The notes under the pieces are model-generated. The model had not been told where the DNA came from, ran no database searches, and saw nothing but the letters and a program-made list of their open reading frames with translations. This document shows, piece by piece, positions 3,754 to 45,218 of a stretch of 46,474 bases of DNA (positions are counted from its first letter, which is position 1; the number at the start of each line of letters is the position of its first letter). The stretch is taken from the NCBI GenBank assembly GCA_021847925.1, contig JAJZNI010000052.1, positions 1 to 46,474 of the forward strand, written 5' to 3'. Source of the stretch: a bacterium (GTDB lineage Bacteria; Chloroflexota; Dormibacteria; Aeolococcales; Aeolococcaceae). The position numbers were made by a program, and so were the translations under genes.

Positions 3754-3829
<76 letters not shown>

Positions 3830-43314: not shown

Positions 43315-44403
43315 GTGCCCACGTCCATCCCGCCGCCGCCGCCCTGCCTCGCGGCGGCCCCGGAACGCCCCGCCCGGCGCGCCCCCGGCCCCCTGCGGAT
43401 CGGCGGCGTGGAGCTCGCGTCCCCGGTCCTGGTCGCTCCCATGGTGGGCATCACCGACGCCCCCTTTCGCCGGCTCGCGCGGGAGATGGGCGCCGGGCTG
43501 GTCTCGGCGGAGATGGCGGCCGCCGAGGCGGTGGTGCGCCGCATCCCGCGGACCCTGGAGCTGCTGACCTTCGACCCCGAGGTGACCCCCGCCGCGGCCC
43601 AGCTGGTGGGCAACGATCCCGCCGTGATGGCCGAGGCCGCGGCCATCTGCGCGGAGCGGGGGGCGTCGGTCGTGGACGTCAACCTCGGCTGCCCCGTCCC
43701 CCGGGTGACGGCGCGGGGCTCAGGGGCCGCTCTGGCACGGGACGTGACCGCCACCTGGCGGGTGGTCCGCGCCATGGTGGACGCGGTGGGCGTCCCCGTG
43801 ACCGCGAAGATGCGGCTGGGCTGGGACAACGCCTCGATCAACGCACCCGAGCTGTCGCGGGCCCTCCAGGATGCCGGCTGCGCCATGGTCACCGTCCATG
43901 GCCGGACCCGGGTGCAGCGCTACCTGGGGCGGGCGGATTGGGCCGAGATCGCGCGGGTCAAGCGGGCGGTCGGGATCCCCGTGGTGGGCAGTGGCGACGT
44001 CACCGACCCCTCCGAGGTCCGGCGCAGGGTTCTCGCCGGGGAGGTGGATGGCGTGGTCGTGGCTCGGGGGGCGCTCGGCAACCTCTGGCTCATACGCCAG
44101 GCGAGCCACGAGGTGGCCACGGGCGAGCCGCTTCCCGACCTGGGCTTCGCGGAGCGGATCGCCCTGACGCGGCGCCACCTCGACCTCCTGATCGACCACT
44201 ACGGGGAGCGCCGGGCCCTGATCGTGGGCCGGAAATACGTGGCGTGGGCGATCCGCGGCTGCGGCGGGGCCGCCCGGCTGCGGGCCATGGTGCAGAGCCT
44301 GGCGACCCGGGCGGACCTGGACTCCCTGCTCGGCCTCGCCCTGGCCGCGGGCCCCGGGCCGCAGGGCTGGTACGCGCCGGTGTTCACCTCGGGCGACGGC
44401 TAG
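43315..44403 (+). CDS. dusB: tRNA-dihydrouridine synthase
   Basis: LVAPMVGITDAPFRRLAREMGAGLVSAEM, NLGCPVPRVTARGSGAAL, VHGRTRVQRYLGRADW, GSGDVTDP. Confidence 0.94.
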   Translation: MPTSIPPPPPCLAAAPERPARRAPGPLRIGGVELASPVLVAPMVGITDAPFRRLAREMGAGLVSAEMAAAEAVVRRIPRTLELLTFDPEVTPAAAQLVGNDPAVMAEAAAICAERGASVVDVNLGCPVPRVTARGSGAALARDVTATWRVVRAMVDAVGVPVTAKMRLGWDNASINAPELSRALQDAGCAMVTVHGRTRVQRYLGRADWAEIARVKRAVGIPVVGSGDVTDPSEVRRRVLAGEVDGVVVARGALGNLWLIRQASHEVATGEPLPDLGFAERIALTRRHLDLLIDHYGERRALIVGRKYVAWAIRGCGGAARLRAMVQSLATRADLDSLLGLALAAGPGPQGWYAPVFTSGDG

Positions 44404-44508: not shown

Positions 44509-44545
44509 AAAAAAAGAGGGCGCCCCTGGAAGACCAGAGACGCCC
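44509..44545 (-). terminator. intrinsic terminator, minus strand
   Basis: Stem GGGCG/CGCCC and CTGG/CCAG around a 3x3 internal loop; on the minus strand followed by UC then U7 (plus-strand A7 44509-44515). Confidence 0.75.
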
Positions 44546-44584
44546 CGAGAGGGGGGGCTGTGGAAGGTGCGGTCCCCGACCGCT
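44509..44584 (-). ncRNA. candidate small RNA, ~76 nt, with 5' hairpin, C-rich linker and terminator hairpin
   Basis: 5'-A-GCGGUC-GGG-GACCGC-ACCUUCCACAGCCCCCCCUCUC-terminator stem-UCU7; promoter at 44591-44620 places the TSS at about 44584. Confidence 0.62.
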
Positions 44585-44590
44585 GCTGTG

Positions 44591-44620
44591 ATGATAGGAA
44601 GGATATCAGATCGGGGTCAA
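44591..44620 (-). promoter_or_regulatory. sigma70-type promoter for the candidate small RNA
   Basis: Minus strand TTGACC (44620-44615) - N18 - TATCAT (44596-44591). Confidence 0.68.
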
Positions 44621-44756: not shown

Positions 44757-45218
44757 ATGGACAAGCCAGTTCTGCTCACCAAAGAGGGTCTCGACAAGCT
44801 CCAGAGCGAGCTCGAGGAGCTGTTGACCGTTCGCCGGGGTGAGATAGCCGAAAGGATCAAATACGCCAAGGACTTCGGGGACATCACCGAGAACGCCGAG
44901 TACGAGGATGCCAAGAACGAGCAGGGGATGCTCGAGGGAAGGATCCTGACCCTGGAGGCCATGATCCGCAACGCCGTGATCATCGAGCAGGACGCCCAGG
45001 CGGGGGTGGTCCAGGTCGGGTCGACGGTCGAGGTGAAGGACGACGACGGGGTCCAGGCCTTCACGATCGTCGGCCCCGCCGAGGTGGATGTCACGGCCGG
45101 CAAGATCTCGATGGAGTCCCCGGTCGGCAAGGCCCTCCTGGGCCGCCGGGTGGGAGATAGGGTGGACGTCCAGAGCCCCGGGGGTGCCCGGCAGCTCCGC
45201 GTCGTCTCCGTCCACTAG
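44757..45218 (+). CDS. greA: transcription elongation factor GreA
   Basis: LTKEGLDKLQSELEEL, AKDFGDITENAEYEDAKNEQ, SPVGKALLGRRVGDRV. Confidence 0.96.
   Translation: MDKPVLLTKEGLDKLQSELEELLTVRRGEIAERIKYAKDFGDITENAEYEDAKNEQGMLEGRILTLEAMIRNAVIIEQDAQAGVVQVGSTVEVKDDDGVQAFTIVGPAEVDVTAGKISMESPVGKALLGRRVGDRVDVQSPGGARQLRVVSVH

Follow-up and report, generated by a model that had tools for sequence, protein, structure and literature searches.

A conserved small RNA gene with an invariant C-rich tract, divergent from greA, in one order of Candidatus Dormibacterota

The mycobacterial 6C-type small RNA (sRNA) B11 is reported to use C-rich loops to repress a target carrying a six-G tract in its 5' UTR (PMC10470900), and in Rhizobiales the SmelA075 and SmelA099 RNAs present CCUCCUCCC anti-Shine-Dalgarno loops on stems that vary across paralogues (PMC3927594). 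In E. coli, the greA leader encodes an sRNA of its own, GraL (PMC6829880). Here we describe an sRNA gene lying opposite greA in the window, that is, the whole stretch of 46,474 nucleotides analysed, which derives from a Ca. Dormibacterota MAG (2.4-Mb assembly) and has a GC content of 74%. The earlier note had read a complete minus-strand sRNA gene at 44620-44509, between dus and greA, and both its sequence and its coordinates proved correct base for base. The locus comprises the following features:

44615..44620, minus strand: -35 element, TTGACC (TTGACC or TTGACG in nearly all genera of family f1)
44591..44596, minus strand: -10 element, TATCAT (TATCAT or TATGAT in most f1 genera and in genus g17)
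44509..44584, minus strand: sRNA, predicted transcript of 76 nt with a predicted start, present in 42 of the order's 50 genomes
44569..44583, minus strand: 5' hairpin GCGGUC-GGG-GACCGC of the predicted fold (in many genera a hairpin of unrelated sequence is found here)
44547..44557, minus strand: C7-UCUC tract, putative seed, complement GAGAGGGGGGG (the last six C and UCUC are invariant)
44517..44546, minus strand: intrinsic terminator stem-loop GGGGCGUCUCUGG-UCUU-CCAGGGGCGCCCU, from the fold and a terminator scan
44509..44515, minus strand: U7 tail, read from the sequence
44757..45218, plus strand: greA (Pfam PF03449 and PF01272), divergent from the sRNA, a neighbour kept in both families
43315..44403, plus strand: dus (Pfam PF01207), the downstream neighbour in most members of family f1; coaX takes its place in family f2

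Pfam identified the flanking genes as dus and greA, both of which lie on the plus strand. Elsewhere in the window, a tRNA-Arg (CCG) at 3754-3829 is the sole Rfam or ARAGORN match.

The predicted promoter has an 18-nt spacer between TTGACC and TATCAT, followed by 6 nt and then by A44584, and in a consensus scan of the last 12 kb it was the only sigma70-like site, with 0.3 expected. In most f1 genera, and also in g17, the best promoter match of each genus exceeded what shuffled sequence gave (10 of 12 in most), and the combined matches gave P ~4e-20 if the relatedness of the genera is ignored; in three f2 genera the match was no better than in shuffles. In the predicted fold (MFE -35.5 kcal/mol, z = -2.8), a 6-bp hairpin at the 5' end is followed by the open C7-UCUC tract and a 13-bp terminator stem. 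This reproduces the arrangement described earlier, with its single-stranded C7 and its U7, and the window indeed has no A/T homopolymer of at least seven besides the A7 at 44509. Taken alone, C7/G7 runs are common (14 in this 74% GC window) and the 5' hairpin is marginal against shuffles (0.08), so that it is by its conservation that the feature stands far above chance. Hairpins of unrelated sequence occupy the 5' end in many genera, e.g. g1/g13, g5, g10, g3, g8, g14 and g16, and are weak or absent in g7, g9 and g12. A small protein was rejected as the product, given that no ATG, GTG or TTG lies 5' of the core in the window's transcript. Several hallmarks of a trans-acting intergenic sRNA are present in the sequence, namely a predicted promoter of its own, an intrinsic terminator, no ORF and a conserved seed tract that stays unpaired when the RNA is folded in silico.

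A search of 61 relatives at the DNA level showed the element to occur throughout families f1 and f2. In an alignment of 29 copies (A1), from which a covariance model was built, CCCCCC-UCUC-GGGGCGUC and GGCGCCC-U are invariant and the loops are variable. The model matched 44 of the 110 genomes of the class, and 42 of these matches were judged genuine, all within one order; those in G101 (family f4, 22 bits) and G027, in the range of 22-32 bits, were judged to be chance terminators. Hence the sRNA is present in 42 of the 50 genomes of the order, spanning two families and 17 genera. Its absence from the other eight is explained by assembly or by a missing canonical greA locus: five (G003, G018, G027, G038 and G043) have no greA match at all, G006 and G021 have only a greA paralogue of 43-49%, and in G031 an N gap lies inside the site. 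Among the sampled members of the order, G013 has a GC content of 56.5% in the fetched stretches, compared with 66-74% for the others. The string CCCCCCUCUCGGGGCGUC is identical across all 17 genera compared, and with ungapped anchoring C6UCUCGGGGCGUC is 100% identical in these genera, whereas the bases upstream agree at 0.25-0.28, the chance level. Because similarity to the core was how the copies were gathered, its invariance is partly ascertained and the figure of 100% somewhat flattered, and the 42 of 50 genomes found by the covariance model are the safer measure of conservation.

When 85,462 species genomes were searched for the exact pattern, the 39 stretches returned all came from apparent Dormibacterota records, with no clear case of a foreign organism; the relatives that bear a name are Ca. 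Dormibacterota MAGs, among them Ca. Changshengia and Ca. Aeolococcus gillhamiae, and some records carry just the label 'bacterium' or 'Chloroflexi'. Among 400 genomes drawn from across the phylum, matches were confined to members of the order, and in class-level outgroups the element was not found upstream of greA. The earlier note had named a lack of conservation in relatives as what would speak against the gene; instead, 17 genera across the two families keep the C-tract, stem and U-tract, most of them together with the promoter, which supports the reading as a complete sRNA gene.

Among the 13 pairs of the terminator stem, eight never vary, four show one-sided changes and one a two-sided change, with 99.4% of the cells of the alignment paired; since eight pairs never vary, covariation says little. 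More informative are lineage-specific paralogues that keep CCCCCCUCUCGGG on unrelated terminator stems which are still paired. Genome G008 carries three further copies of this kind, with the stem GGGGCCGGCC/GGCCGGCCCC, and genomes of genus g6 carry copies with the stem GGCGCUCC/GGAGCGCC. The search pattern was CCCCCCTCTCGGG-N12-40-TTTT, and its reversed version, used as a control, had no match in the 50 genomes. As these paralogues keep CCCCCCUCUCGGG with wholly different terminators, it is the C-rich tract itself, and not just the terminator, that selection maintains. In genus g12 (L093, L022 and L026) there is a second full-length copy away from greA, and the copy at greA has a diverged terminator.

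As judged from its sequence, the RNA gene itself is genuine and conserved, with predicted transcription from its own promoter to its own terminator. We further propose, with a probability of roughly 0.6, that this free-standing gene, with a sigma70-type promoter opposite greA and an intrinsic terminator, specifies a trans-acting base-pairing regulator with a CCCCCCUCUC seed. Transcription would start at this promoter and end at the terminator, leaving the invariant CCCCCCUCUC single-stranded as a seed, most likely trans-acting, whose presumed partners are G-rich stretches (GAGAGGGG-like) at or close to Shine-Dalgarno sequences; such pairing may block translation or alter mRNA stability, presumably with no need for Hfq. 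The 5' and 3' ends of the RNA would be shielded by the 5' hairpin and the terminator stem, respectively. During synthesis, the predicted folds suggest a transient GCCCC-CCCUCUC-GGGGC hairpin whose loop holds the seed and which the terminator would then open. Hfq (PF17209) was not found in the 50 genomes of the order by a search that was positive in five of 14 controls, including E. coli and B. subtilis, so that the RNA does not have the mark of an Hfq-dependent sRNA.

The idea, already put forward in the earlier note, that the C-tract pairs with ribosome-binding sites is still plausible, but the genome-wide target test gave it no statistical support. Across 1,252 called genes (~1.58 Mb, four genomes), the complement of the seed was not enriched at gene starts, since 27 starts carried 7 nt or more of it where shuffled sites gave 41.5 +/- 14, and exported or secreted proteins were not in excess among the complement-bearing genes. 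A search of 25 genomes for GAGAGGGGG-N3-13-ATG yielded, at the loci retrieved, 15 coding-like genes downstream, of which six begin with a signal or TM segment, compared with one of 12 for a control Shine-Dalgarno sequence, a comparison that is post hoc and includes orthologues. This excess is suggestive as a lead only, and possibly just phylogenetic. In three g6 genomes (L137, L254 and L265) a gene for a pro-kumamolisin (S53-type) peptidase has a 10-nt complement, GAGAGGGGGG, 5 nt before its ATG, and a fourth genome has a near-identical sequence match; the mRNA of this peptidase is a possible target, among candidates that are few and weak.

The position of the gene raises the question of whether it acts in cis, i.e. 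whether a divergent promoter or RNA controls greA-lysS-serS by promoter competition or by pairing with the greA leader. The sRNA is upstream of and divergent from greA at nearly every greA locus of both families, in many of which lysS or serS lies beyond greA, and greA of E. coli is autoregulated through its leader sRNA GraL (PMC6829880). However, the other flank changes, being dus in f1 and coaX, itself adjoining dus, in f2, while the strand of the gene and its orientation away from greA stay the same, which argues against a cis leader. Pairing with the greA leader, tried as a target, is not conserved, with few loci near the 5% level and most at chance; moreover, about 1.3 kb separate the sRNA gene from greA in genus g15, the paralogues adjoin regulators rather than greA, and competition between promoters could do without an invariant C-tract. 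We therefore regard control in cis as improbable. It is far less probable still that the locus is a conserved intrinsic terminator or transcription boundary alone, with no functional RNA: the terminator is strong, but in the window and the related loci there is no minus-strand gene upstream from which read-through would have to be terminated, the element has a conserved promoter of its own, and the invariant C-tract lies outside the stem, which the paralogues alter while leaving the tract intact. We reject this explanation because of the missing upstream gene and because the C-tract outlives changes of the terminator.

Binding of a protein is a more serious competitor, though an unlikely one. 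Here C6-UCUC-GGGGCGUC would be the site of an RNA-binding protein, in a sponge or in 6S-like or CsrB-like titration, instead of an antisense seed. Consistent with this, the invariant block covers 18 contiguous bases including part of the stem, one U-G pair in it is never replaced, and complementary sites are not enriched at gene starts. On the other hand, there is one short site per RNA, unlike RNAs of the CsrB type, which have multiple binding sites, and the paralogues keep CCCCCCUCUCGGG but not GGGGCGUC, from which it follows that the requirement is mostly for the C-rich tract. As to whether the RNA belongs to a catalogued C-rich family, the run of at least six C and weak matches at the locus to mmgR (RF00519, 16.1 bits) and CcsR1 (RF02791, 14.7 bits) speak for it, but these scores are below the gathering cut-offs of 41 and 65.3 bits, respectively, and CcsR1 was also rejected for the absence of CCUCCUCCC loops. 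The question of membership in actinobacterial 6C (RF01066), which the earlier note could not decide, is answered in the negative by the covariance model, which found no match at the locus, either at the gathering threshold or at E<=10, and only 20.8 bits elsewhere in the genome against a cut-off of 47; in addition, the two C-loop stem-loops are absent, and the single C-tract per RNA is unpaired in the predicted fold. No Rfam family matched at the locus or in 16 related loci, and membership in any of these families is the least credible of the explanations.

Within the preferred reading, in which a C-rich seed regulates in trans, the neighbourhoods of the paralogues are suggestive of how copies may be controlled. 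Each of the three G008 copies (L066, L067 and L068) is divergent from a gene for a Crp/cNMP-type regulator (PF13545, PF00027), and a palindrome, CGTACGGTASCGTACG / CGTACGGTA(G/C)CGTACG, overlaps the -10 element and looks like a candidate operator. The g6 paralogues (L069, L072 and L073) are divergent from an XRE-type HTH gene (PF01381/PF13560), with ATACTGCC direct repeats between the sRNA copy and this gene. The Crp-type and XRE-type proteins may control the adjoining paralogues. It is tempting, but tentative, to see here a multi-copy, Hfq-independent, order-specific family in which the C6-UCUC seed is given new promoters and terminators beside different regulators (greA operon, Crp-type, XRE-type), each copy bringing a different signal to one shared set of G-rich targets.

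In the collection of papers searched, none dealt with sRNAs in Dormibacterota or Dormibacter, and by its sequence the element constitutes a new, previously uncatalogued, order-specific sRNA family of a known functional kind. An uncultured soil phylum thereby gains a conserved family of regulatory RNAs whose exact motif is directly searchable in soil metatranscriptomes, and the occurrence of paralogues next to regulator genes suggests how a fixed seed gets rewired to new control signals without Hfq.

Compared with the systems described so far, the Dormibacterota sRNA shares with GraL its linkage to greA but lies on the strand opposite the greA leader, with its own promoter, and a GraL-like leader RNA was rejected on that account. 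The alphaproteobacterial family mmgR (named suhB in Rfam) has a similar layout of 5' element, C-rich tract, GGGC-type terminator and U tail. With SmelA075/SmelA099 and CcsR1 the Dormibacterota sRNA has in common a C/U-rich anti-Shine-Dalgarno motif kept in paralogues whose stems diverge, but the motif is CCCCCCUCUC instead of CCUCCUCCC and occurs once per RNA, directly before the terminator. Like 6C and B11, it is small, belongs to high-GC hosts and has C runs of at least six; whereas these RNAs consist of two stem-loops with C-rich loops, it has a single C7-UCUC between a 5' hairpin and a terminator, and it differs further by its phylum, by the lack of a covariance-model match and by its fixed UCUC-GGGG. 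By analogy, it is most likely functionally similar to 6C/B11, although not a member of that family.
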